Of a stretch of DNA of 57,799 bases, positions 21,565 through 41,807 are shown in pieces. The first letter of the stretch is position 1, and every line of letters begins with the position of its first letter. The DNA comes from a virus. The notes below the pieces were generated by a model, which had not been told where the DNA came from, did no database searches, and saw nothing but the letters and a program-made list of their open reading frames with translations. The stretch covers positions 1 to 57,799 of the IMG/VR virus record IMGVR_UViG_3300047560_001719. One strand, 5' to 3'. Made by a program: the position numbers and the translations under genes.

Positions 21565-23295
21565 ATGGCAGGCGCAAACAGTAGATTTAAAGTTGATAAC
21601 GGTCTAGTTGCTTCTGGTAACGCCATCTTCTATGATCGTGTCGATGTCGAGGCTAACGCTCACTTCAAGAACGACTTGTTCGTTGTATCTGGTAACCTAG
21701 TCGTTAACGGATCGCTAGTATACGCTAACGTGACAGTAGGCAACGGCGGTATCCTTCTGATCGCGGATCAGCAACCGCTCGGTAACACATCGAATCGTTT
21801 CAACGGTTTCCTTTACGATACCATCTCATACGGAACTCTTCGTCCGAACTCCAACGGTGGTGCTCTCGGTACTACGACTGCACGTTTTGATGTTTTTGCA
21901 AACAACATCACTCTCACAAACTCTCTGCAGTTGACAGGCGGTGGTGGAGTCAACTCATCCCTCTATACGGGTACAGCGAGCAACGCAAATACTGTTTACA
22001 ATATCTCGGCAAACGGTATAGTAGTTCGTACAGGTACAGGAACTGGTGAAGCAAGAACTATCGTCGGTTCAAATGCCGTTACAGTTACCAACGGTGATGG
22101 TGTATCTGGTAATCCAACTTTGACGTTTGCCAATGGTACGGGTCTTACCGTCAACTCGACTGGTGTACACGTCGATCTTTCTGCTGTCACGACTGGTACT
22201 CTTGCAGTGGCTCGTGGTGGTACAGCAGGTAACGTAAACAACCTTCTACCTACTCAATCGGCCGGTGTAGCAGGATACGTTCTGTCTACTAACGGTGCTG
22301 GCGGTGGTCTATATTGGTCTGCTCTTGCTGGACCACAAGGACCACAAGGTGCGACAGGTGCAACTGGGGCCACAGGATCTACAGGTGCACAAGGACCACA
22401 GGGACCACAGGGACCGCAGGGAGCTGCATCGACAGTTGCAGGTCCACAAGGTGCTACAGGGGCAACTGGAGCGACTGGACTTACAGGACCGCAGGGACCT
22501 ACTGGACCACAAGGGCCACAAGGTGCTCAAGGTTTACAAGGTGCTACTGGATCTACTGGAGCTACAGGTGCACAAGGACCACAAGGACCACAAGGTGCTA
22601 CTGGTGCAGCTTCGACTGTTGCAGGTCCACAAGGACCACAGGGACCGACAGGAGCTACAGGATCAACTGGTCTTACCGGGGCCCAAGGACCACAAGGACC
22701 AACTGGGGCACAAGGTGCTACTGGGGCGCAAGGATTACAGGGCGCGCAGGGATTACAGGGTGCAGCTGGTGCTACAGGTGCGCAGGGACCGACGGGTGCA
22801 CAGGGACCTGCAGGATCGAATGGTTCGACAGGTGCTACGGGGGCACAGGGTCCACAGGGACCACAAGGAAGTGCAGCTTCAGCAGCTGCACCTATTCTCA
22901 GACACGTTACATCTGGTTACACATCAGGCGGTCAAGTCTTCGTAACGGGAACTACACCGACTGCATCGGCCGCTGGTGATATCTGGATCGATACTTCTGG
23001 TTCTTCAGGGTTTACGCAGTCTCTCTCTTCGAGCGGTTATACTAAACTACCGAACGGTGTGTACATTCAATGGGGTTCGATATATACATCTCCAAACTCG
23101 AATGGGTCAGGATCATGGCCTATCACTTTCCCGAATGCATGTTTTGCTGGTGTGATGAACGGTGTCGGTGAAACAAGTACATTCGGCGGTCAAGGTGGCG
23201 ACCCGACGATCTATAGTGTAAGTACTTCTGGATTTAGTTATCACTCTGGTGATGATGTTGGATGTACAGCATGGTTCATAGCAGTAGGATACTAA
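21565..23295 (+). CDS. Collagen-like tail fibre with gp53-like C-terminal domain
   Basis: The 576-residue protein has an N-terminal beta-repeat fibre domain ([19 protein letters not shown]), then about 180 residues of Gly-X-Y triplets (residues about 256-436) rich in GPQ and GAT and broken twice by a GAASTVAG linker. The C-terminal domain of about 120 residues has [17 protein letters not shown], an ITFPNACF strand and a final WFIAVGY, as in C-terminal receptor-binding or fibre-tip domains of the gp53-like/short tail fibre type. It is followed at once by a likely fibre assembly chaperone. A trimeric collagen-like shaft carrying a receptor-binding tip is the natural reading. Confidence 0.85.
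22330..22872 (+). repeat. Collagen-like Gly-X-Y coding repeat
   Basis: About 60 in-frame Gly-X-Y triplets, mostly GPQ, GAT, GST and GAQ. The DNA is a near-repeat of GGACCACAAGGA-type units, which also makes long spurious open frames in other phases. Confidence 0.9.
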
Positions 23296-29086: not shown

Positions 29087-32000
29087 ATAAAAACAATTTT
29101 AGAGTCAAGAACGGGCTCACAGTAAGTAACGGGATCGTAGTAGAAGCCGGAGTTATTTCTGGTAACGGCTCTTCGATCACATCGGTCAACGCAGCTACTC
29201 TTAACGGTAACACCGCTGCTCAGCTTCGAGCTTATACTGACTCATCTATCGGTACATCCAACACTGCTATCGTAGCGAATGCTTCTGCGGCTTACACGAA
29301 CGCTGTAAGCTATACAGATACTAAAATTGGAACTGCCAACTCTGCCATCACTGGTAACGCTGCTACTGCTTATACGAACGCCACTTCGTTTGCATCGAAC
29401 GGTTCGAACATCTCGACAGGAACTGTAGCTTTCGCTCGCCTTCCTACTGTCGACTCGGTAGCTAATACATCAGTTGCATTAATCCCGACAGCCAACAACG
29501 TCAAGACTGCATACGATGCTGCTATCACAGCCAACAACAATGCTGCGTCTGCACTCACTGCGGCCGGTACAGCATACAGTAACGCTGTAACCTACACCGA
29601 CACCAAGATCGGTACGGCCAACTCTGCTATCGTAGCTAATGCATCGGCTGCTTATACTAACGCAGTTTCTTATACAGATGGCAAGATCCTAACTGCAAAC
29701 TCTGCTATTACAGGCAATGCTGCCACCGCCTACTCTAACGCGACTAGCTACACTGACACGAAGATCGGTACTGCAAACTCTGCGATGATCGCGAACGCCA
29801 GTGCAGCTTATACCAATGCTACAACCTATGCATCGAACGCTTCGAACATCTCGACAGGAACTCTTGCTTTCGCGAGACTTCCTACTGTAGACTCTGTAGC
29901 GAATACATCAGTAGCTTTGGTTCCTACTGCCAACAACGTCAAGACGGCATACGATGCAGCTATCACCGCAAATACCAATGCGCAGACAGCTTTGACTGCA
30001 GCGGGTGCAGCTTATACCAATGCAGTGAGCTACACAGATACGAAGATCGGTACTGCAAATACGGCCATGGCTGCTAACGCTGCAGCTGCTTATACAAATG
30101 CTGTCAGTTACACAGACGGTAAGATTCTAACTGCGAACTCTGCTATTACAGGCAACGCAGCTACGGCATATACCAATGCGACGACATACGCTTCGAATGC
30201 CAGCAATCTTTCTACCGGAACAGTAGCAGAAGCTCGGCTTCCATATCGTATGAACCAAAACGTTCGTACTACAGATTCTGTAGAATTTGCTGGTATCACT
30301 CTCACAGGAAACCTTGTTGTTTCAGGTAACGTGAACGTTGTCGGCGCAAATAACCTGATCGTGTCCGATAACATGATCTATCTGAACAGCAACAACGACG
30401 TCACGAACCCGGATATCGGTATCGCTGGTAACTACAACGACGGCGTGTATCACCACACGGGTATCTTCAGAGATGCCACTGACGGGTTCTGGAAAGTTTT
30501 TGATAACTATGATCCAGAACCAGACGCGAACGTGTACATCGATACTACTAACACGTCGTTCCATATCGCTGATTTCTGGGCAAATACAGCACGTATCGGT
30601 AACACATCAGTATACGCCACCATTAATACCACGACGTTTACTGGCACCGCGAACAACTCTACGTATCTTAATGGTCAACTAGCAGCTTACTATACGAATG
30701 CCACGAATATTAGTACAGGTACACTCGCAGCAGCTCGTTTACCTTCACTGTATCTCGGCACTACGACTATTCAGTCTACCAGCGCCGCGCAGGCTGTTAG
30801 CGGTATCACGACTCTTGCTGCAGGTAATACTACGATTACCGGTTTTGCAAACGTATCGGTGTCTGTTAACTCTGCTGCTCTTTCTGTCGGATCAAGCTTT
30901 GTAGCCAACACTACACAAGTAACTTATGGTATTCCACAGCTGATCAATAATAATCAGCATCTAAGATTCCAGACAGTCAACACTTCTGCATACGCATACT
31001 TTACACAGCAGAACGACGATAACTTTGTATTCTATACATCGAACACCACTTATGGCGCTCGTGCAGTATTCTCGATCTTTGCCAACAGCGTCACGAGTAC
31101 TTTTAACATCTCTCCAGGTGTTGTATTCAACGGCGGTATCTATGCTAACGGTTCGTACGGTACTTCTGGTCAAGTCCTAACAACGAATGGAACCGGAGTC
31201 TACTGGTCAACTGCATCAGCAGGTGTGAACGTCAACTCTACGTATGCTTGGACTAACACACACTCGTTTGCCGCCAACGTTACTTTTGCAAACAACATCT
31301 CTATCACTTCAGGAAACTCTTCTGTTGCTGGTGGGTTCTTGCTATTCAACGGTATAGCAGACGCTAACTGGAAGATCGGCAGAAATACCAACGGTACAAC
31401 CAAGTGGTACTACACAAACAACTCTCTTGATATCTTAGTAGCCAACTCGAACCTCGAAGGTATCGTTCTCGGTAACCCGCTCGTTAGCGGACAATCTTAC
31501 CTCGAAACTGGCCATGCCGGAACTTACATCGCAGGTAACGTAACTATCGGTAACACTTCGTCTAAATCTACCATCAACTCGACTGCGTTCTCAGGCTCTG
31601 CTAACAACTCTACATACTTTGACACAGCAACATGGGCAGCACCGAAAGCTATCGGTGGAGGCACTGCCAACTCGGGTGCTTTCACTACGGTAACTGCTAC
31701 GAGCGTTTCTGCTACTACAAACATCACCGCTACAGCAAACGTTTCGGGTGATATGGTTATCACAGCCAATAACGGTAACGGTACAAACTTCAAGGTCGGA
31801 GACGATGCTTGGATCGGAGACGTCAACCAGGCAGATACTCTTCGTATTCAAGGTCAACAGAGCGCAAACAACGCATACATCGTATTCGGCAATGCCGATA
31901 ACTCGATTAAGCTTGGCCGTGCAGGAACAGGAGCACTAACTTGGAACAGTAACTTTGCTGTTACAGGTAACGTTAACGTCAGCACTATTAATGCCACATC

Positions 32001-33918
32001 GTTCGGAGCTACGATCACGTCGAACGCTTCTGTAGCAGTCATGACGATCGGTAACTCTTCAGTGAGCTCAACCGTAAACAGCACGACGTTTACCGGCACC
32101 GCCAACAACGCTACGTATCTTAATGGTCAACTTGCTGCATACTATACCAATGCCACGAACATCACTACCGGTACTTTACCTTACGCTCAGATCCCAGCAA
32201 ACGTAATCAATACGACAGCGAACTTTACTATCTCTGGCCAGCATACCTATAATGTTGCAACGTGGGGAGTAATATTTAGAGCATCGAATACTACAAACTT
32301 CTCTGGAGCTAGATGGGAAGACACCGGTGGTACGGTTAGAGCAGGTTGGTATCGTTACGATAATTCTGATCTAACGCTGTCGACATACTATGCGAACGGT
32401 ACATATCAAGCTTCTCCTATTATTGTTTCATCAGCAACGGGAGCAGTTTCTCTTACATCGCTGTCAACGACAACCGGTACTTTCTCCGGCGCGGTTTCAG
32501 GTATTACTACTCTTGCAGCCGGTAACACTACTATTACTGGCTTTGCGAACGTATCTACTTCAGTCAACTCTGCACTGTTGACGGTTGGATCTAGCTTCAT
32601 TGCAAATACCACAGGTGCATATCATACAGGAACAGTCAACGCTGCATCTTATACAGTCGGAACAACGTTCGTTGCGAACAGTACATTCCTAACAGTAGGT
32701 ACAGCAACTCCATACAACAGCGGACTCGTTACATCATCTGCTCCCGATGGAAAACAAGCATATACTGCGCAAGTAGCCAACAATGTTTATTCACTATTCC
32801 AAGGATTCAACTCAAGCGGCGGTCTTGCTTTCCAAGTAACTGGTTCTGGATCTGTTACCGCAAACGGGTCATTGTCAGGAGTTACCACTCTTGCAGCTGG
32901 TAATACAACTATCACCGGATTCGCTAACGTTAGTGGTACCGGTGGAACGCAGCCTGCAATCGCTCTTAGAAGTGGTGTTTATGGAGCATTTGTTGTACCA
33001 CAAGCCAGTCCAGGCGCGTATAATAACTTAGTAGCTAATAATGACAATTTATTGTACTTCTCGAATGGCACTATAAACGGTGGAAATCTTGTCATTGGAT
33101 CATGGTCAGATCGTGCATCAGGCTATGGCATTAAATTTACCGGCAGTACATACGATTTAGCAGTTACTGCTAATACCCTCACTATTACTGGTAACACGAC
33201 TATTACCGGTTTCGCCAACGTAACTACTACTCTCCAGGTCGGAGGAGGCACTGCAGGTTCTCCAGCAATCACCGCTGCTACATCTACTGGCGGTGTTTCC
33301 CTGTCTCTTACAGATAGTGTTACGAGTACTCTTATCGTAAGGCATGATTCTGGATCAGGTCATCCTATTATTGGTACAAATGGTTCTGGTTTGAGACTTG
33401 CGGCTGGAGGTTCACAGTCAGGTCAAACTGCTATCACTATCATCAACAGTGGTAATACCGGTATCGGTAACACCTCTCCAGCACATAAGTTTTCAGTTAA
33501 CGGAACAACATACCTTGGAGGTATCACGACAGCTGCAGCTAACGTGGCGATGGCTAACAACTATATCGTTGCTCCTGCATTCCAAGCATACTCTGAATAC
33601 GTGTCGACGAATGCCACTGCAACTGGTGCTATCACTCTCGACCTGTCGACTTCGAACTTCTTCAACCTGACTCTGACAGGTAACATCACTCCGACGTTTA
33701 GCAACGCTCCTTCTGGTAGAATGTTCTCGTTCACGTTCGTTGCCAAGCAAGACGCGACAGGTGGTAGAACGATCACATGGCCGACAGGAACGAAATGGCC
33801 AGGCGGTGTTGCACCTCCTGCAACGACTACGGCAAACGCCATAGATATATGGTCAGTCATGACATACGACGGCGGTACTACATGGATCGCTTCACTCTCA
33901 GTTAAAAATGCGAGCTAA
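29080..33918 (+). CDS. Giant tail fibre without canonical start (probable ATA start)
   Basis: From the last in-frame stop (29062-29064) the frame is open to 33918, but the first ATG is at 29785 and there is no GTG or TTG before it. The 29092-29784 stretch is clearly coding: it holds the same repeats as the rest (AYTNAVSYTDTKIGTANSAI, STGTVAFARLPTVDSVANTS). With ATA at 29080 as start, the N-terminus reads (I/M)NNKNNFRVKNGLTVSNG, which parallels the start of the collagen-like fibre ([13 protein letters not shown]), and ATA-A overlaps the upstream TAA just as ATGA does at other junctions. This gives 1612 residues. Later parts carry the IVSDNMIYLNSNNDVTNPD module (30349-30590), four GITTLAAGNTTITGFANV-like repeats and the common fibre C-terminal domain (ITWPTGTKWPGG). 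This is probably a long tail fibre. Confidence 0.75.
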   Translation: MNNKNNFRVKNGLTVSNGIVVEAGVISGNGSSITSVNAATLNGNTAAQLRAYTDSSIGTSNTAIVANASAAYTNAVSYTDTKIGTANSAITGNAATAYTNATSFASNGSNISTGTVAFARLPTVDSVANTSVALIPTANNVKTAYDAAITANNNAASALTAAGTAYSNAVTYTDTKIGTANSAIVANASAAYTNAVSYTDGKILTANSAITGNAATAYSNATSYTDTKIGTANSAMIANASAAYTNATTYASNASNISTGTLAFARLPTVDSVANTSVALVPTANNVKTAYDAAITANTNAQTALTAAGAAYTNAVSYTDTKIGTANTAMAANAAAAYTNAVSYTDGKILTANSAITGNAATAYTNATTYASNASNLSTGTVAEARLPYRMNQNVRTTDSVEFAGITLTGNLVVSGNVNVVGANNLIVSDNMIYLNSNNDVTNPDIGIAGNYNDGVYHHTGIFRDATDGFWKVFDNYDPEPDANVYIDTTNTSFHIADFWANTARIGNTSVYATINTTTFTGTANNSTYLNGQLAAYYTNATNISTGTLAAARLPSLYLGTTTIQSTSAAQAVSGITTLAAGNTTITGFANVSVSVNSAALSVGSSFVANTTQVTYGIPQLINNNQHLRFQTVNTSAYAYFTQQNDDNFVFYTSNTTYGARAVFSIFANSVTSTFNISPGVVFNGGIYANGSYGTSGQVLTTNGTGVYWSTASAGVNVNSTYAWTNTHSFAANVTFANNISITSGNSSVAGGFLLFNGIADANWKIGRNTNGTTKWYYTNNSLDILVANSNLEGIVLGNPLVSGQSYLETGHAGTYIAGNVTIGNTSSKSTINSTAFSGSANNSTYFDTATWAAPKAIGGGTANSGAFTTVTATSVSATTNITATANVSGDMVITANNGNGTNFKVGDDAWIGDVNQADTLRIQGQQSANNAYIVFGNADNSIKLGRAGTGALTWNSNFAVTGNVNVSTINATSFGATITSNASVAVMTIGNSSVSSTVNSTTFTGTANNATYLNGQLAAYYTNATNITTGTLPYAQIPANVINTTANFTISGQHTYNVATWGVIFRASNTTNFSGARWEDTGGTVRAGWYRYDNSDLTLSTYYANGTYQASPIIVSSATGAVSLTSLSTTTGTFSGAVSGITTLAAGNTTITGFANVSTSVNSALLTVGSSFIANTTGAYHTGTVNAASYTVGTTFVANSTFLTVGTATPYNSGLVTSSAPDGKQAYTAQVANNVYSLFQGFNSSGGLAFQVTGSGSVTANGSLSGVTTLAAGNTTITGFANVSGTGGTQPAIALRSGVYGAFVVPQASPGAYNNLVANNDNLLYFSNGTINGGNLVIGSWSDRASGYGIKFTGSTYDLAVTANTLTITGNTTITGFANVTTTLQVGGGTAGSPAITAATSTGGVSLSLTDSVTSTLIVRHDSGSGHPIIGTNGSGLRLAAGGSQSGQTAITIINSGNTGIGNTSPAHKFSVNGTTYLGGITTAAANVAMANNYIVAPAFQAYSEYVSTNATATGAITLDLSTSNFFNLTLTGNITPTFSNAPSGRMFSFTFVAKQDATGGRTITWPTGTKWPGGVAPPATTTANAIDIWSVMTYDGGTTWIASLSVKNAS

Positions 33919-33921
33919 TCG

Positions 33922-35601
33922 ATGGGTATTGGTGGCGGTTCTAAATTTACATTAGAAAAAACATGGCGTGGATCTGGAACGGGAACTACTAAGTTCAACT
34001 CTCCGGGTAACATCGCTATTCCTTATGGTCGTAACAGCATCTACGTTTCAGGGCAGGGTGGTTCTGGGAACGCGCTCGTTCCAGGACCAGGAACTGGTAC
34101 TTACAACGTTATTCCTGGTAATGCGACCGGTACTTACAACATTATTCCAGGAAATGCTACTGGAACCTACAACATCGTTCCTGGTAACATCTCGACTTAC
34201 AATATCATTCCTGGTCCAGTGGCTACGTACAACATCATCTATCCAGTAGCTACATACAACATCATCTATCCAGGAACTGGTACATACAACATTATCTATC
34301 CAGGAACTGGAACCTATAATATCGTTCCAGGTAATGCTACTGGTGCTTATAACATTATTCCAGGAAATGCTACTGGCATCTACAACAAAATTGCCGGTAA
34401 TATAGCTACATACAACATCATCTATCCAGGAACCGGCACGTACAATATCGTTCCAGGTAATGCTACTGGAACCTACAATATCATTCCAGGCAATGCTACT
34501 GGTATCTACAACAAGATTCCCGGTAATATAGCTACATACAATATCATCTATCCAGGAACTGGTACATATAACATCGTTCCGGGTAATGTCGTTTCTTACA
34601 ACGTCACATATCCAGGAACCGGTACTTACAATAAGATCCCAGGTAACGTAGTAAGTTACAACATCGTTCCCGGTAATGTCTCTACGTATAACGTCATTCC
34701 GGGTAACGGTACTTACTACCCTCCGTATCCTGGATTTCAAAATTACTATTATTCTCCGAAGTACGGTGGTCCTGTACTAGACTTCTTTTATAATGCCCCA
34801 ACGCCCGGTTTTGTAGGTGCACCTTATAACGCTCCGACCGGTGGTCCTGCAAACTACAACGCTGCAACAAACGGGCCCGCGAACTACAACGCTGCAACAA
34901 ATGGTCCTCAGAACTACAACGTAGCGAACGGACCTGCAAACTACAACGCTGCAACAAATGGTCCTCAAAACTACAACGTAGCCAATGGTCCGGCTAACTA
35001 CAATGCGCCTACTAACGGCCCGACTAACTATAATGCTGCGACAAATGGTCCGCAGAACTACAATGCACCTACCAACGGTCCTCAAAACTACAACGTAGCC
35101 AATGGTCCGGCTAACTACAATGCACCTACCAATGGTCCGACTAACTACAATGCGCCTACTAACGGTCCTCAAAACTACAACCCTGCTACCAATGGTCCGC
35201 AGAACTATAACGTAGCGAACGGTCCTCAAAACTATAACGTAGCCAATGGTCCTGCAAACTATAATGTAGCGAACGGCCCTGCGAACTACAATGCTCCGAC
35301 GAACGGCCCTGCGAACTACAATCCAGCTACCAACGGTCCACAGAACTACAATCCAGCTACCAACGGTCCTCAGAACTATAACCCAGCAACAGCTGGTCCG
35401 CAGAACTATAATACTCCTACTCCAGCAGTTGCAGGTAACCCATCTTCTGCTCTTGGAATCACTTTCCCTGGGTCAAACGTCGGAGGTACACCTGCTCCTG
35501 TTATAAGTAATCAGCTGGCAAGCTACTACTCATACCCAGATGGTCAAACGCATTCGGTAACGGTAGCTCCCGGAGGTTATATCGACATTACCATTCAATA
35601 A
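33922..35601 (+). CDS. Repeat-rich fibre-tip-like protein (TYNIIPGN and NGPxNYN arrays)
   Basis: The 559-residue protein follows the giant fibre by three bases. The N-terminus (GIGGGSKFTLEKTWRGSG, then IPYGRNSIYVSGQGGSGN) resembles the opening of Gly-rich adhesins. Then come about 20 units centred on TYNIIPGN or TYNIIYPG (34081-34714), a short Tyr/Pro-rich spacer, and about 20 units of NGP(A/Q/T)NYN followed by AAT, APT, PAT or VA (34843-35421). The C-terminus ends with a beta strand (THSVTVAPGGYIDITIQ). Units of 9-11 residues with a fixed Tyr-Asn and Pro suggest a solenoid or extended fibre. By analogy with the 26488/27996 pair, it may be the distal adhesin of the giant fibre. The function is not known; the two arrays are directly visible. 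Confidence 0.75.
   Translation: MGIGGGSKFTLEKTWRGSGTGTTKFNSPGNIAIPYGRNSIYVSGQGGSGNALVPGPGTGTYNVIPGNATGTYNIIPGNATGTYNIVPGNISTYNIIPGPVATYNIIYPVATYNIIYPGTGTYNIIYPGTGTYNIVPGNATGAYNIIPGNATGIYNKIAGNIATYNIIYPGTGTYNIVPGNATGTYNIIPGNATGIYNKIPGNIATYNIIYPGTGTYNIVPGNVVSYNVTYPGTGTYNKIPGNVVSYNIVPGNVSTYNVIPGNGTYYPPYPGFQNYYYSPKYGGPVLDFFYNAPTPGFVGAPYNAPTGGPANYNAATNGPANYNAATNGPQNYNVANGPANYNAATNGPQNYNVANGPANYNAPTNGPTNYNAATNGPQNYNAPTNGPQNYNVANGPANYNAPTNGPTNYNAPTNGPQNYNPATNGPQNYNVANGPQNYNVANGPANYNVANGPANYNAPTNGPANYNPATNGPQNYNPATNGPQNYNPATAGPQNYNTPTPAVAGNPSSALGITFPGSNVGGTPAPVISNQLASYYSYPDGQTHSVTVAPGGYIDITIQ
34081..34714 (+). repeat. Array of about 20 TYN-(I/V)-(I/V/P)-PGN units
   Basis: In-frame units of about 9-11 codons, each with Tyr-Asn followed by Ile/Val and PGN or YPG. 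Third-base variation between copies shows that the array has been maintained for some time rather than just expanded. Confidence 0.85.
34843..35421 (+). repeat. Array of about 20 NGPxNYN units
   Basis: In-frame units of 27 or 30 bases encoding GP(A/Q/T)NYN plus VAN, AATN, APTN or PATN. Blocks such as GTAGCCAATGGTCC recur, indicating unequal recombination. Confidence 0.85.
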
Positions 35602-35623
35602 GTGAATTGATAAAGGATTTAAT

Positions 35624-36217
35624 ATGCCATATAATATTCCTAAGTACGGGAAACAACTGAATTGTTTTGCGGTGTGGTCCGGAGGATTTACTTCAGAAGA
35701 AGTCGATAAGATCATTGATCTCGAACGACTTCAAACATTTGAAAAAGGAAAAGTTGGTTTTGATAAGAATGCTGCTGCGCCCGCTGAGACACGAGACTCA
35801 GACGTATCCTGGATTCATCACGATCAACACAGCGACTGGCTTTTCAATCGTATGGCCGGTATCACGTCTATCGTCAACTACGATAACTTCATGTACAACA
35901 TCGATGGAGTCGATGCGTTTCAGTACACGAAGTATGGACCAAACCAGCACTATACTTGGCACTGGGATGTAGAGTTCGGCTGGCAAAAATGGGTTCGAAA
36001 GATCTCGGCTGTTCTGTTACTCTCTGATCCTGATGAGTATGAAGGTGGAGAACTTGAGATCGTTAACACTGGAAACCTCGAAGACAAAGTTTCCTTTAAA
36101 CCGAACAAAGGTGATATCGTATACTTCGCTTCGTGGATGCCGCATCGTGTTGCTCCGGTAACTTCTGGTCTTCGTAGAAGTCTTGTAGCATGGATAATGG
36201 GTGAAAGAGAATGTTGA
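35624..36217 (+). CDS. 2OG-Fe(II) oxygenase, prolyl 4-hydroxylase-like (PKHD type)
   Basis: The 197-residue protein has the complete iron and 2-oxoglutarate site of the P4Hc fold: YGPNQHYTWHWD with H113 and D115, a distal H174 in WMPHRVAPV and R184 in TSGLRR. A conserved GGELEI turn and GDIVYFAS strand complete the jelly roll. The family hydroxylates protein side chains or small molecules using oxygen and 2-oxoglutarate. It follows the Pro-rich repeat protein by 22 bases and overlaps the next gene by seven bases, so it leads the accessory operon. The substrate is not shown by sequence; hydroxylation of Pro in the neighbouring fibre repeats is a hypothesis. Confidence 0.88.
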   Translation: MPYNIPKYGKQLNCFAVWSGGFTSEEVDKIIDLERLQTFEKGKVGFDKNAAAPAETRDSDVSWIHHDQHSDWLFNRMAGITSIVNYDNFMYNIDGVDAFQYTKYGPNQHYTWHWDVEFGWQKWVRKISAVLLLSDPDEYEGGELEIVNTGNLEDKVSFKPNKGDIVYFASWMPHRVAPVTSGLRRSLVAWIMGEREC

Positions 36218-36948
36218 GTTGGAATCCTTTTAAGAAAAAGCCTATCATCGAGTTTTATTGTCATCGAGACGATGTAGCCACTCTTCCTCAGCCTCGACCG
36301 GCAGCAAAGTACATACCGGAATGGTACAAGAGAATTCCACCTGTGATCAATGATGGTAATAACGACCGCGATCAATACGGAGCTCGAACCTTTACAGCCA
36401 AGAAGTGCATGCCAATGTTGGATGCGATGTCTCTTGGATATGTTATTCCCTTGATATCAGATCTTTCAGTTAGGTCAAATCATGATTGTAGCACGATCGA
36501 AGTCACATCTTCTCCACATATCAACGTTTGCGAGTTCCATGACATTCGCCAACTCGGAGAGAGAACTGCTCCTGGATTCCCAGCTCCTCCTCTTAAATTC
36601 ATCAATCCGTGGATCGTGAAGACCGCTCCGGGTTGGTCGACGCTGTTTATGCCGCTTATTAACAATATGGAAAGCCACTTTACTTGTCTTTCTGGTCTGG
36701 TTGATACAGATACCTATCCAAAGGAAGTTAACTTCCCGGCTGTTTGGCACACACCAAACTTTGATGATTTGCTTCCAGCTGGTACTCCCCTTGTAGTAGC
36801 TATTCCGGTCAAGAGAGATGCAATTCCGACAAAACCGGTAGTACGTGACATGACAGATAAAGAATTTGATAAAGTCAATCTTATTACGAAGATGCAGAAC
36901 ACACGTAGAAAAGTTTATACTGATGAATTGAGAGCACCTAGAAAATGA
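36211..36948 (+). CDS. Unknown phage protein, paralogue of 36945 gene
   Basis: The 245-residue protein begins with IIEFYCHRDDVATLPQPRPA and IPEWYKRIPPV, a pattern seen in uncharacterised phage proteins (possibly the DUF6065 group, not certain). The middle has LGYVIPLISD, and the C-terminal half NPWIVKTAPGWSTLFM, then SGLVDTDTYPKEVNFPAVW and AGTPLVVAIPVKR. These stretches align with the downstream gene product. The fold looks like a beta-sandwich or cupin, but no metal triad is evident. It overlaps both neighbours, so it is co-translated with the hydroxylase. Confidence 0.7.
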   Translation: MLSWNPFKKKPIIEFYCHRDDVATLPQPRPAAKYIPEWYKRIPPVINDGNNDRDQYGARTFTAKKCMPMLDAMSLGYVIPLISDLSVRSNHDCSTIEVTSSPHINVCEFHDIRQLGERTAPGFPAPPLKFINPWIVKTAPGWSTLFMPLINNMESHFTCLSGLVDTDTYPKEVNFPAVWHTPNFDDLLPAGTPLVVAIPVKRDAIPTKPVVRDMTDKEFDKVNLITKMQNTRRKVYTDELRAPRK

Positions 36949-37685
36949 AGAATCCATTTACATCATGGTTTAAACCGCAAAAAGATCTCGAATTTGTAGA
37001 TACTACTCGCCTTACGTATCATAACTTTACGGTCGAAAGAGCGTGCGATGTCAAAGCAAACACGTATCGCCATCAACTTGATACGTATGGAAAACATATG
37101 ATGCCGGGTTGTCCAGGAATCCTCGACTACTCTCAGTATGGGTATATTATTCCTGCATGGGTAGACATCCATATTTTTGCAAACAAAGCAGGAGTTTCCT
37201 GGCGCATAGGAGATGGTGCAGCTCGTGGAGATAGAGGGTTTGCAAACGGAAATCCTATGGATTATAGGTTGATAGACGGAGCCTTCGAAGTCGAAGATGT
37301 TCCTCCTACGGCTATTCTATTTCCATCTCCTTGGAAAATCTTTGCACATAAAAATATCAGTGCAATGGTAATGCCTGCAACGTATCATGGTTCTCATTTT
37401 GAAGATTTACATGTTATTCCAGGAATAGTTGACTACAACAAGTTTCATGCAGTCAATTTTATTTGTATGCCGCGACGATCTTGCGAAGTTCATATTAAAG
37501 CCGGAGAACCGCTTCTTCATGTCATGCCGTTTTTAAATAAGTCTATTACAGCGTCGGTCGGTCCAGGCACAGAAGAGCAGGTAGATAAAGCAAAGAACAT
37601 GATTCCGGGTGATGACGAGCAATACTATCGAAAGTTCATGAGAACAAAAAAGATTTTTAAGATAAACAAAGAGAGTGAGCAATGA
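36945..37685 (+). CDS. Unknown phage protein, paralogue of 36211 gene
   Basis: The 246-residue protein shares the layout of the preceding gene product: YGYIIPAWVDIHI against LGYVIPLISDLSV, PSPWKIFAHKNISAMVMP against NPWIVKTAPGWSTLFMP, and PGIVDYNKFHAVNF against SGLVDTDTYPKEVNF. Both have a KAGEPLLHVMPF or AGTPLVVAIPV strand. The two are divergent tandem duplicates. Start and stop both overlap neighbours by ATGA. The function is unknown; the position between a hydroxylase and a glycosyltransferase suggests a part in the same modification pathway. Confidence 0.7.
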   Translation: MKNPFTSWFKPQKDLEFVDTTRLTYHNFTVERACDVKANTYRHQLDTYGKHMMPGCPGILDYSQYGYIIPAWVDIHIFANKAGVSWRIGDGAARGDRGFANGNPMDYRLIDGAFEVEDVPPTAILFPSPWKIFAHKNISAMVMPATYHGSHFEDLHVIPGIVDYNKFHAVNFICMPRRSCEVHIKAGEPLLHVMPFLNKSITASVGPGTEEQVDKAKNMIPGDDEQYYRKFMRTKKIFKINKESEQ

Positions 37686-38698
37686 ATATTTTTGTTTCGA
37701 TCTGTTCTTACCAAGATCCATTACTGCCACATACTATCAAGAGTATGATGCAGACCAAATCTAATAGAAACAACGTCGTGTACTCGATCTTCGAACAGAC
37801 TCGTTATGAGGATTCTCTTGCATGCACAGAACCTGTATTAGTAGGTCGTGAAGACGTTATCTACAAAAGAATTGATCCTGAGTATTCGGACGGATGTGTG
37901 TGGGCAAGATACGTCAACATGTTGAACGTTACTGACGAGTTCGATTTCATCTATCAGATCGATTCGCATATTCTGCACGATCAGCATTGGGATCGCGCGC
38001 TGATCGAAGATTATAAGAGAGCGTTGGATATATCTGGAACAAACAAGATCATCATCACGGGATCGTGTAAAGGTTTCAACATCTCTGAAGAAGATGACGA
38101 GATAAAGACTTATTTGATTGAACAAGAAGATCTATCTTGTAAAGTAGGGTACTACACAATCGATCCTGAAACTCTCATTCCAGTAGTGCACGGAGATTCT
38201 TTTCCTGCAACCGAAATGCCTCAGCCGGCATTTCATATCATGGCAGGCAACTTCTTTACTCACAAAGATTGGGTAGATAATGTCGGCTTAAATCCAAAAA
38301 TCTTCTTCGAAGGCGAAGAAGTAATGATGGCAATGATGTCGTATGCAGCTGGCTATAAGATGTTCCATCACAGTAAGATGGTTTCTTATCACCTAGCTGA
38401 TACAAAGACTTGGCATACAAAGAACAATGTAGTCGAACCAGCAGGTGCACGCCGTAGGCAAAGACTTTCTGAGATCGGTCGACTTGAATGGAGGAAATAC
38501 TTAGATACATGTCGTGAAGATATGCTAGAAGCTTTCCATCAAGAGTTCGGAATCGATTTTATTAATCTTGAAATCGCAGAGAGTGCCCGAACATACAGCT
38601 TAGACACTCCAGGTAAAGCAAATCATTTTACTGAATTCAAGAAGGTTCCAGAAGAAAACCAACTTCCTCCTGCTCTGTTTATGAAAGACGATGAATGA
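37682..38698 (+). CDS. GT60-like glycosyltransferase (GlcNAc-transferase family)
   Basis: The 338-residue protein has the GT-A features of the Skp1-GlcNAc-transferase/GT60 group: an N-terminal IFVSICSYQDPLLPHTIKSM, the segment DGCVWARYVNM, the donor/metal motif YQIDSHILHDQHWD (residues 91-104) and the later KIFFEGEEVMMAMMSYAAGY with a following YHL. In Dictyostelium, GT60 Gnt1 adds GlcNAc to a hydroxyproline made by a P4H; that is family knowledge. Here the gene shares an operon with a P4H-like oxygenase. No membrane anchor is seen, so it acts in the cytoplasm. The actual donor and acceptor are unknown. Confidence 0.78.
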   Translation: MNIFVSICSYQDPLLPHTIKSMMQTKSNRNNVVYSIFEQTRYEDSLACTEPVLVGREDVIYKRIDPEYSDGCVWARYVNMLNVTDEFDFIYQIDSHILHDQHWDRALIEDYKRALDISGTNKIIITGSCKGFNISEEDDEIKTYLIEQEDLSCKVGYYTIDPETLIPVVHGDSFPATEMPQPAFHIMAGNFFTHKDWVDNVGLNPKIFFEGEEVMMAMMSYAAGYKMFHHSKMVSYHLADTKTWHTKNNVVEPAGARRRQRLSEIGRLEWRKYLDTCREDMLEAFHQEFGIDFINLEIAESARTYSLDTPGKANHFTEFKKVPEENQLPPALFMKDDE

Positions 38699-39228
38699 TC
38701 GTTTGTTCTATTCCTCGGTGCGGAGCTACTCGGTTCTGTCTTGATTTGCAAGATCAGACCGATATTCCATTCATCGGAGAACTGAACCCGCTTTACATGT
38801 TCGAGAACAAGAAGGTGGATCATCACGAGACAAAGTTTCAGAAAGATTTTACTCCTGATCGGTTTGCCGATCTTATCTACGATAAGAAAAGCAGCATCGT
38901 CATGATAAATAAATCATCGTATCTGATAGCTGACAAAGCTGACTATGTGATCTTGAGAAAGAATATGATAGACGCTTTCATGAGCTACGCTAACTTCATG
39001 CTGAAGTTGTACCCAGATATCGATACGAAGGTGCTCTTAAAAGAGATACAGTTTACTGTCTACGACTACTTTGGTTTAAAGTCTTACGTTGATAAGTATG
39101 TATGTAATATCGTGTGGTATGAAGACTATTTTGGAAAGAGTGGAACACAGACTCCTTTATTGGATAGTCATAGGCATGGATCGGTAATAAAGAAAGCAAT
39201 TCAGGATGTTTTTAAGGAATGTAGATAG
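38695..39228 (+). CDS. Sulfotransferase-like protein
   Basis: The 177-residue protein begins with a P-loop-like CSIPRCGATRF (residues 4-14), resembling the 5'-phosphosulfate loop of PAPS sulfotransferases (PRSGTT). A second motif VILRKNMIDAFMSYANF (R88, S97) matches the 3'-phosphate site RDPxxxxxSxxxF. It is shorter than most sulfotransferases (250 or more), so it may be a minimal phage version. It overlaps its upstream neighbour by ATGA and the downstream desaturase by 23 bases. It could sulfate a glycan or lipid made by neighbouring enzymes. Activity is inferred from two motifs only. Confidence 0.6.
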   Translation: MIVCSIPRCGATRFCLDLQDQTDIPFIGELNPLYMFENKKVDHHETKFQKDFTPDRFADLIYDKKSSIVMINKSSYLIADKADYVILRKNMIDAFMSYANFMLKLYPDIDTKVLLKEIQFTVYDYFGLKSYVDKYVCNIVWYEDYFGKSGTQTPLLDSHRHGSVIKKAIQDVFKECR

Positions 39229-39931
39229 AACATATCACTTGTTTGCTCTACAACTTATTATGCCCGTCATCGCAGTATGGGCAATGATAACATACTTTTC
39301 ATGGCCATGGGTCTTAGCATCCTTGGTCATGTTTTTCCTTATGCGGTGTGTAGGAGCAGTGGTCACGTATCACCGTATTCATGGTCATCGTACACATACT
39401 ATGCATCCTGTAGTCGAGTTTATATGTACAGGCCTCGGTTTTTATGGTAGCATATCATCGCCGATCGACTTCTGTGCAGCGCACGTCAACCATCACAAGT
39501 ACATGGACACGGAAAAGGATCCTCACTCTCCGAAGTACCTCGGTTGGAAAGCTATGTTCCCTCTCTTTTGGGTAGATCGACAAGCAGGAGATCTTCGAAC
39601 GATAGTAAGATTAGGTAAGAACAAGATCACGAGATTTTATCATGACTACTACTGGCCGTTGCTTCTCGTTCCGTTCTTGTTACTCTTCGTTTCTTTGAAC
39701 GCGTTCTTGTTTTTGTTCGTAGTACCGACCGGTCTTTCGTTGTTTACGCTTTCGATATCAACTCTCAATCATGATAAGAACGGACCAAAAAAGATGCCAT
39801 GGTGGTACGGAATTTTGACCGGTGGAGAACACCATCATAAATGGCATCACGAACATGCAACAGACACGAGCGGAGAAGGATGGCTCGACTACGTTGCCAA
39901 TGCAGTAGGCACAAAAAGGGTTAAGAAATGA
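39206..39931 (+). CDS. Membrane fatty-acid desaturase (Delta9-like)
   Basis: The 241-residue protein has the three histidine boxes of membrane desaturases: HRIHGH (H56-H61), HVNHH (H93-H97) and HKWHH (H211-H215) with the preceding GEHH, plus an LNHD near residue 189. Hydrophobic segments at about 14-50 and 150-185 form the membrane hairpins. It resembles bacterial acyl-CoA/acyl-lipid Delta9 desaturases, somewhat short. It would introduce double bonds in host acyl chains and change membrane fluidity during infection. It overlaps the sulfotransferase-like gene by 23 bases and the next gene by ATGA. Desaturases have been reported in marine phages. Confidence 0.88.
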   Translation: MFLRNVDRTYHLFALQLIMPVIAVWAMITYFSWPWVLASLVMFFLMRCVGAVVTYHRIHGHRTHTMHPVVEFICTGLGFYGSISSPIDFCAAHVNHHKYMDTEKDPHSPKYLGWKAMFPLFWVDRQAGDLRTIVRLGKNKITRFYHDYYWPLLLVPFLLLFVSLNAFLFLFVVPTGLSLFTLSISTLNHDKNGPKKMPWWYGILTGGEHHHKWHHEHATDTSGEGWLDYVANAVGTKRVKK

Positions 39932-40470: not shown

Positions 40471-41241
40471 TTACCACTTTGTTCCGTGTCTTGAACTATA
40501 CTTCTTCTCGGGATGAAACGCAGCAAAGTCTTCATAGCGTGGATCTCCAGGTTCGGCTCTCTTGCCGATGCTGTACTCTCCGATATGAGTAACGAGGTTC
40601 TTTCCTTCTGAACTCTTTAGCTTGCATGTCTTCATTTCCATTTGTTTCAACGATGCTGCCACCACATACTCGCTGAGATTCTTCTCTCCAGTCATCTCAC
40701 GATGCGGGATATCTGCCATGCTTCTTGGAAAGAAGCTCGCTAGACTCCAGAAATACTGATCAGAGAGCTCTACTCGATATTGCGTACTAAGATTTTGAGC
40801 TTTGTCTAGAATGATGTCCGACTCGAGTGGTTGTGTCTCTTCTTCGAAGTCATACCACTTCTGACGCGTCAAGCATACTTGAGAGAACGTTTTGTTGTCA
40901 TGTAAAATCTGAGCGAGATCGAGAACCTTCACCGGTTGGTTGAATGTAACGTCGTCTTCTGACAAGTAAACATAATCGTAATCTCTCTGTCTCAATAGCT
41001 CGAACGTGGCGTTCCATACATATGGAAGTCCCATGTTCTGTTGATGCAGAATTACTTCAGTGTAACCAAAGTTCTTGGCCAACTCATACATCGTTCCGTC
41101 ATGCCGACCTTTTGGCATGTCATCGATAAAGATGCCTTCGACTTCACAGTGACTAAAGTCAAGCATATCTCTCTGAGACTTGAGAGTCGGGATCAGGTAC
41201 TCGAGTCTATTCGTCGACCAGATGATCTTACATACTTTCAT
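40471..41241 (-). CDS. Glycosyltransferase, GT-A fold
   Basis: This minus-strand gene encodes 256 residues. It has a GT-A/GT2-like layout: KIIWSTNRLEYLIPTLKSQ, then IFIDDMPKG (residues 37-45), HQQNMGLPYVWNAT and the metal-binding YLSEDDVTF (residues 92-100). The later SDQYFWSLASFFPRS segment is typical of an acceptor loop. There are no membrane segments. It starts by TGATG overlap with the minus-strand DUF6445-like gene upstream. The acceptor is unknown; it could act on a virion protein or on a product of the adjacent plus-strand operon. Confidence 0.78.
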   Translation of the reverse strand: MKVCKIIWSTNRLEYLIPTLKSQRDMLDFSHCEVEGIFIDDMPKGRHDGTMYELAKNFGYTEVILHQQNMGLPYVWNATFELLRQRDYDYVYLSEDDVTFNQPVKVLDLAQILHDNKTFSQVCLTRQKWYDFEEETQPLESDIILDKAQNLSTQYRVELSDQYFWSLASFFPRSMADIPHREMTGEKNLSEYVVAASLKQMEMKTCKLKSSEGKNLVTHIGEYSIGKRAEPGDPRYEDFAAFHPEKKYSSRHGTKW

Positions 41242-41807
41242 CAGTAAGTCTCCGTATCAAAGAAGAACGTTTGGAAAAGACGACCGTCGTATAGATCCTT
41301 GCCGAAGTAATCGAGGCTGGCATGGAACAGGTCACCGCGATAGATCACAAGTCGATTGTACTTGTTGCCTACAACGTCGATTCGATCCCATTTAGTATAG
41401 TCGTATCCTTCATGTATGTTCTCAGTAGAACGATACTCTCCTGATTCTTTGTGACGATAGATGGCAGTGCCTGCGGTAGGAGGAGCATCAGGAGTCAAGT
41501 AGCATACTGCTGCCCACATACTCGTATGATCGCTGTGGATCCATGTACGATCGAACGCAGTTGCATACTGAAAAGCTCCAGTATAACCAGAGTCTTCATG
41601 CCAATTGGTCACAGGACCAGCAAACCACATCCAGTTCTGAATGCACTGTTTGACGTCGTCTGTGAGAAATGATTTTGTTCTTTTACCTGGATAGTTTCCA
41701 GCGACATCGAATTCTTGGGTCAGAGCGTATGCTCTCACAGCATCAGGATTTATGTAAAAGTTATCGATGATCATCAAGTCTAGATTCATGTCAAGTCGCC
41801 CGTTCAT
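41241..41807 (-). CDS. DUF6445-like putative 2OG-Fe(II) oxygenase
   Basis: The 188-residue minus-strand protein has the pattern of the DUF6445/jelly-roll oxygenase group: WIHSDHTSMWAAVCYLTP with H91 and D93, a PTAGTAIYRHKESGE turn, and a distal LVIYRGDLFHAS with H162 and a later R176. The HxD...H...R order is compatible with an iron and 2-oxoglutarate site. An alternative start is Met7. It is the first gene of the minus-strand unit, just behind a reverse late promoter. It would be a second hydroxylase-type enzyme in this cassette. The substrate is unknown. Confidence 0.7.
   Translation of the reverse strand: MNGRLDMNLDLMIIDNFYINPDAVRAYALTQEFDVAGNYPGKRTKSFLTDDVKQCIQNWMWFAGPVTNWHEDSGYTGAFQYATAFDRTWIHSDHTSMWAAVCYLTPDAPPTAGTAIYRHKESGEYRSTENIHEGYDYTKWDRIDVVGNKYNRLVIYRGDLFHASLDYFGKDLYDGRLFQTFFFDTETY

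Follow-up and report, generated by a model that had tools for sequence, protein, structure and literature searches.

A phage cassette encoding a repeat-rich fibre protein, a putative prolyl hydroxylase and a GT60-like glycosyltransferase

On Skp1, hydroxyproline is formed and then receives N-acetylglucosamine (GlcNAc) through the established sequential action of a prolyl hydroxylase and a GT60 pair (PMC11570480), represented by PhyA and Gnt1 in Dictyostelium and Toxoplasma. The gp38-type adhesins, such as those of T2, S16, and PP01, combine a repeat scaffold with a hypervariable receptor-binding part (PMC12892980). Aquatic phages commonly carry viral prolyl hydroxylases and 2-oxoglutarate (2OG) oxygenases, whose use has been called cryptic (PMC9301287) or assigned to host metabolism (PMC3037559). 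Here, we describe a gene cassette with likenesses to all of these systems, located at positions 33,922–38,698 of the 57.8-kb virus record IMGVR_UViG_3300047560_001719 (positions 1–57,799, hereafter the window). The window derives from a T4-like phage, since its terminase shares 57% identity with the terminase of cyanophage S-RIM8.

The cassette lies on the plus strand and consists of a repeat protein, REP (33922–35601, 559 amino acids); a 2OG-Fe(II) oxygenase related to prolyl 4-hydroxylases, P4H (35624–36217); two DUF6065 paralogues, D1 (36211–36948) and D2 (36945–37685); and a GT60-like transferase of the PF11397 family, GT60 (37682–38698). These open reading frames (ORFs) lie where a preliminary description of the window had placed them, and the overlaps it reported after the oxygenase are present: seven bases between P4H and D1, and the four bases ATGA at the D1/D2 and D2/GT60 junctions. 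A further ATGA couples GT60 to a sulfotransferase-like gene (38695–39228, plus strand), into which the operon-like run extends past position 38698. The whole is best explained, in our view with about an even chance of being right, as a cassette for producing and decorating a receptor-binding fibre tip that can be exchanged. The gene linkage suggests that a family of uncultured bacterial viruses chemically decorates the part of the fibre that probably touches the host.

By analogy, the cassette may treat a fibre as the Skp1 pathway treats Skp1 in its first two steps, although we do not file it as a member of that pathway. The likeness lies in the predicted pairing of a PHD-type prolyl hydroxylase with a GT60-family GlcNAc transferase. 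In contrast to the Skp1 pathway, the phage genes are clustered, the apparent target is a repeat fibre that offers dozens of prolines, compared with a single one in Skp1, and the DUF6065 partners are added. With the gp38-type adhesins, the cassette shares the position of REP directly after a large fibre gene, the hypervariable part, and the existence of sister cassettes with Gly-rich repeat proteins. No gp38 family appeared among the Pfam or PHROG matches of REP, which differs from gp38 in its Pro/Asn/Tyr repeats, two equal arms, one central variable segment, and dedicated candidate modification enzymes. Finally, PBCV-1 vCPH (5c5t) and other viral prolyl 4-hydroxylases are viral 2OG enzymes that match P4H structurally; the vCPH match, however, ranks below the PHD-type enzymes, and chloroviruses infect algae. 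If the proposed chemistry is true, the cassette would provide the first hydroxyproline glycosylation in a phage, as far as we know.

Joint inheritance and exchange of the cassette genes

The survey proceeded from four sides, namely GT60, REP, D1, and a neck gene that is independent of the cassette. Clustering of GT60 relatives at 80% identity gave 17 clusters, of which 14 had enough upstream DNA. All 14 contain P4H upstream, 13 also contain both D1 and D2, and a REP precedes in every case (13 by profile, and one, at locus L179, by eye). Seen from REP, P4H follows 42 of 50 distinct ORFs, and most of the others are the leading member of a tandem REP pair. In the D1 scan, P4H adjoins D1 in 24/24 clusters, and in nearly all of these a repeat protein rich in Gly or Pro precedes the two genes; this protein is often very Gly-rich with Asn-Pro-Gly motifs. 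Co-occurrence of the repeat protein, P4H, and GT60, for which the preliminary description had proposed a genome survey, goes far beyond chance. In addition, the DUF6065 partners, described there as two paralogous unknowns, prove central to this association. Pro makes up at least 8% of the protein encoded 5' of P4H in 50 of the 53 P4H copies linked to a partner (in 7 of the 50, this protein is D1 itself), compared with 0 of 22 copies without a partner. Where a genome carries two REPs, each has its own P4H; one REP is followed by P4H and GT60, the other by P4H, D1, and D2.

Relatives with an 86–95% identical neck protein provided a sample with a common backbone. All five genes are present in 20 of them (including L320, whose genes lie on the minus strand and which was counted from its row), REP, D2, and GT60 are jointly absent in 13, and no partial set was found in this sample. 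Such a split has an exact probability of 2e-9, which rises to 3e-6 when near-duplicates are pooled by approximate visual judgement; as the loci are related, these values are guides and not proper significance levels. A P4H relative occurs in five of the 13 cassette-less relatives, in two of them with D1 in a Gly-rich arrangement. The cassette-less site holds another fibre module with a different repeat or fibre protein and, in some relatives, other enzymes: L298 has a Gly-rich protein, D1, and P4H, and both L336 and L338 have an RCC1-like repeat protein accompanied by other genes. In L093 and L155, the cassette stands among different structural genes. Taken together, the all-or-none split, the replacement at the site, and the varied surroundings show that the cassette genes are inherited together and exchanged as one block. 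As P4H and one fibre protein are inherited jointly, the substrate of P4H is directly testable.

Architecture of the repeat protein

REP directly follows the gene of a large tail-fibre protein (29785–33918, plus strand), whose C-terminus matches phrog_9017 (tail fiber, 1.6e-15) and whose relatives precede REP in other loci. The REP sequence is composed of an N-terminal domain (residues 1–50, 33922–34071), a first repeat arm (residues 51–259, 34072–34698), a central non-repeat segment (residues 260–305, 34699–34836), a second arm (residues 306–504, 34837–35433), and a C-terminal domain (residues 505–559, 35434–35598). Each arm contains 20 units of about 10 residues that begin with YN and mostly carry one Pro, resembling YNI(I/V)PGNATG in arm 1 and YNAATNGPQN in arm 2, which agrees with the roughly 40 Pro-containing units of the preliminary description. 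In total, the protein contains 70 Pro, 18 NGP, 13 PGN, and 6 YPG motifs; Pro-Gly occurs 25 times, and other REPs use YP, QP, and NP contexts. A match to Extensin_1 (26 bits, with a curated cut-off of 105) was rejected as probably reflecting composition.

Sequence comparisons revealed that the short N-terminal domain is common to REPs (alignment A2), as is the C-terminal domain (alignment A1) except in the most distant ones, and that the repeats vary freely. Among 11 close relatives, mean identity amounts to 74% in the N-terminal and 86% in the C-terminal domain, compared with 27% in the centre. Most REPs have a single main non-repeat segment, the centre of which lies at 0.49 of the protein length (median). 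The two arms are equal in length, with a median difference of 4% of their sum and less than 10% in 21 of 26 proteins; three split REPs like that of L172, together with one copy from L093, were excluded or deviate. The number of YN units per arm, 20/20 in the window, is 27/27, 23/24, 16/17, 15/15, and 22/23 in other REPs. The repeat period ranges from 8 to 28 between proteins; within one protein, the periods of the two arms usually coincide or one is a multiple of the other. Equal arms around a hypervariable centre are thus found in most REPs, at sizes from 268 to 854 amino acids; the repeat proteins of L090 and L093 deviate from this pattern. This repeat symmetry is a new feature, which the preliminary description did not contain.

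The symmetry of the arms matches the need of an antiparallel hairpin rod, and a variable centre between conserved ends is as expected of a receptor-binding tip. These sequence patterns suggest that REP is an antiparallel hairpin adhesin with a hypervariable tip. We infer that it is part of the virion and folds back on itself, such that the two equal repeat arms would pair in opposite directions as a rod. Both terminal domains would sit on the large fibre and form the base of this rod, and the hypervariable centre would occupy its tip. If true, the equal-arm hairpin would represent a new fibre design, in which any change in length would have to be mirrored in both arms.

A separate variation concerns a few loci in which a Hint/intein-like domain closes REP and the repeats resume in the next ORF, which gives the adhesin the appearance of being split or spliced (L172:3572-5848, and also L173 and L176).

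Predicted enzymes, their substrate and the proposed chemistry

P4H matches PF13640 with 68.8 bits (curated cut-off 27, E = 8e-19). The residues H113, D115, H174, and R184, from which a complete P4H-type oxygenase had been proposed, are invariant across 17 diverse aligned relatives, and the HxD..H..R set is complete in 57/57 D1/D2-linked copies despite strong divergence. The AlphaFold2 (AF2) model has a predicted local distance difference test (pLDDT) score of 88. Foldseek ranks a Pseudomonas putida P4H first (3.7e-13), followed by Dictyostelium PHD (6t8m, 2.7e-11) and then human PHD2 and PiuC, which places the modelled structure nearest the peptidyl-prolyl hydroxylases of the PHD type. The top-ranking Pseudomonas enzyme acts on EF-Tu.

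GT60 matches PF11397 with 86.3 bits (curated cut-off 21, 3.7e-24), and 10/10 aligned family members match this family too. The QIDSH motif, named in the preliminary description, belongs to a Q[IV]DSH pattern kept in 42/42 distinct relatives, which may correspond to the acidic metal-binding motif of GT60 enzymes. In bacterial genomes, GT60 was found on one 4.4-kb contig of a Chitinophagaceae metagenome-assembled genome; this contig seems to begin within a REP-like C-terminus and to be viral. The gene that follows GT60 contains conserved PRCGATxFC and LRKN...S motifs (alignment A7), from which we consider it sulfotransferase-like; Pfam and PDB searches with it gave no match. Sulfotransfer_1/2 matches recur within or beside other cassettes (L083:13546-14304, L086:8588-9220, and L180:8914-9786). 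PDB sequence searches with GT60, D1/D2, and the sulfotransferase-like gene retrieved no convincing relative.

D1 and D2 are paralogues that both match phrog_7084 (1.2e-20 for D2; alignment A4), and D1 in addition matches DUF6065 (PF19541, 2.5e-7). The AF2 model of D1 (pLDDT 88) has a predicted dUTPase-like fold: All 50 listed PDB matches are dUTPases or dCTP deaminases (best E 2.9e-4), with template modelling (TM) scores of up to 0.74 by target and weak values (0.3–0.4) by query. In alignment A4, a resemblance of GLVDTD and AGTPLV to dUTPase motifs was seen by eye.

In the proposed mechanism, the PHD-type oxygenase would hydroxylate prolines of the REP repeats, and GT60 would then glycosylate these repeats; the sugar would probably be GlcNAc, and its simplest attachment point the hydroxyproline just formed. 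The glycan may be completed by the sulfotransferase-like enzyme, and D1 and D2 would serve as chaperone or presenting subunits that share the substrate of the oxygenase and act together with it. The individual steps differ in likelihood. Gene linkage makes REP the P4H substrate with good probability. Proline is favoured as its target by the enzyme family and by its presence in every repeat protein, and we regard it as the somewhat likelier residue. Asn makes up 2% of the repeat protein in L090, and Tyr and Phe together 0–1% in L099 and L088b, which rules out Asn or Tyr as a universal target, although not for the REP of the window. The preliminary description had also named a collagen-like fibre at 21565 as a possible target; with no Pro-Gly among its 32 Pro, this protein is a poor candidate. 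That GT60 acts on REP is probable, a little less so than for P4H. Hydroxyproline as the acceptor falls slightly short of an even chance; it is favoured because a P4H relative always accompanies GT60 and because, in two-REP genomes, the P4H-GT60 pair follows one REP.

Several observations weigh against this scheme. By sequence and profile, the nearest solved relative of P4H is PiuC. In four of four loci of one subgroup (L172, L175, L176, and L178), the distal iron-ligand His of the GT60-adjacent P4H copy is replaced by Ser or Ala, and this copy is therefore probably inactive; a canonical P4H copy lies about 3.5 kb downstream in these genomes. GT60 is absent from several oxygenase loci (L090, L091, L093, and L155). 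In the REPs of L180 and L172, more than 40% of 12-residue windows lack Pro, and the Tyr/Phe-Asn pair is more regular. Thr is present in REP repeats, and trypanosome GT60 precedents include transfer to Thr. Moreover, the loci are related and do not form independent samples. Of the hydroxylation-glycosylation system put forward in the preliminary description, the co-occurrence of the genes and the closeness of the P4H model to PHD enzymes, including that of Dictyostelium, speak in its favour, whereas a strict P4H-then-GT60 relay is disfavoured by the loss of the distal iron ligand in one subgroup.

The alternative that survives best is an adhesin modified by other chemistry, in which the oxygenase would act on Pro or another residue for stability and GT60 independently on Thr, Ser, or Tyr. 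It would accommodate the frequent Thr of most repeats, the Tyr/Phe-Asn pair as the most regular element of GT60-linked REPs, the probably inactive P4H beside GT60, and the cassettes with P4H and no GT60. Against it stand the P4H-family gene near GT60 in 14/14 clusters and the two-REP genomes, in which GT60 accompanies a P4H copy and not D1-D2; we consider it unlikely, though not implausible. Much less probable is that the enzymes target the host or its metabolism, through EF-Tu-type hydroxylation, 2OG drawdown, or nucleotide or lipid modification, and are merely parked beside a fibre gene. An EF-Tu hydroxylase is the top structural match of P4H, and cyanophage 2OG oxygenases have been proposed to affect host 2OG/nitrogen signalling or DNA repair (PMC3037559), but this leaves the all-or-none inheritance with one structural gene, the fixed REP-P4H order, and the one P4H per REP in two-REP genomes to be explained. 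Similarly improbable is that P4H, D1, and D2 chiefly serve as chaperones in the assembly of the repeat fibre and catalyse little or nothing, which would leave GT60 as the sole modifying enzyme: Some P4H copies are kept despite a lost metal ligand and the dUTPase-like fold of D1/D2 has no known protein-modifying activity, but the conservation of complete Fe/2OG residues in all D1/D2-linked copies is not expected of a pure chaperone.

A decorated hairpin adhesin thus remains our preferred reading, and it allows a tentative generalization, which we rate as more doubtful than hydroxyproline as the GT60 acceptor. Tailed phages may possess a class of adhesins that are hairpin rods of Tyr-Asn/Pro repeats, with arms kept equal by selection, prolines hydroxylated and the hydroxyproline glycosylated by neighbouring enzymes, comparable to plant extensin or Skp1 chemistry, and exchanged as a module.

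Relatives in cultured viruses and neighbouring genes

Among cultured phages, the cyanophages Syn9, P-TIM40, and S-SSM5 carry P4H relatives near fibre or other oxygenase genes, together with other modifying enzymes, and Syn9 and P-TIM40 also contain a DUF6065 relative near such fibre or oxygenase genes. These clusters differ from the cassette in that REP and GT60 relatives were not found in the isolate phage records of the collection searched. In cyanophage S-SCSM1, a P4H relative annotated as ferrochelatase, an O-fucosyltransferase, and another 2OG oxygenase stand in a row (L199:4435-6852). The HF1/HF2-type haloviruses (DUF6065/phrog_7084) contain full-length D1 relatives with about 30% identity, which, in contrast to those of the cassette, have no annotated P4H neighbour. 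In HF1- and HSTV-2-type haloviruses (L125 and L126), the DUF6065 relatives lie near baseplate genes.

On the opposite strand, some close relatives of the window encode another D1-P4H pair, which follows a Gly-rich repeat protein (L009:6427-7739 and L224). In the window itself, the region 39206–39931 encodes a membrane protein with three histidine boxes as in fatty-acid desaturases, for which no Pfam match exceeded the cut-off. Further downstream, on the minus strand, a DUF6445 protein with an HxD..H pattern adjoins a GT2-like transferase (40471–41807), forming a second oxygenase-plus-transferase pair. This pair is kept beside the neck gene even in some relatives without the cassette.

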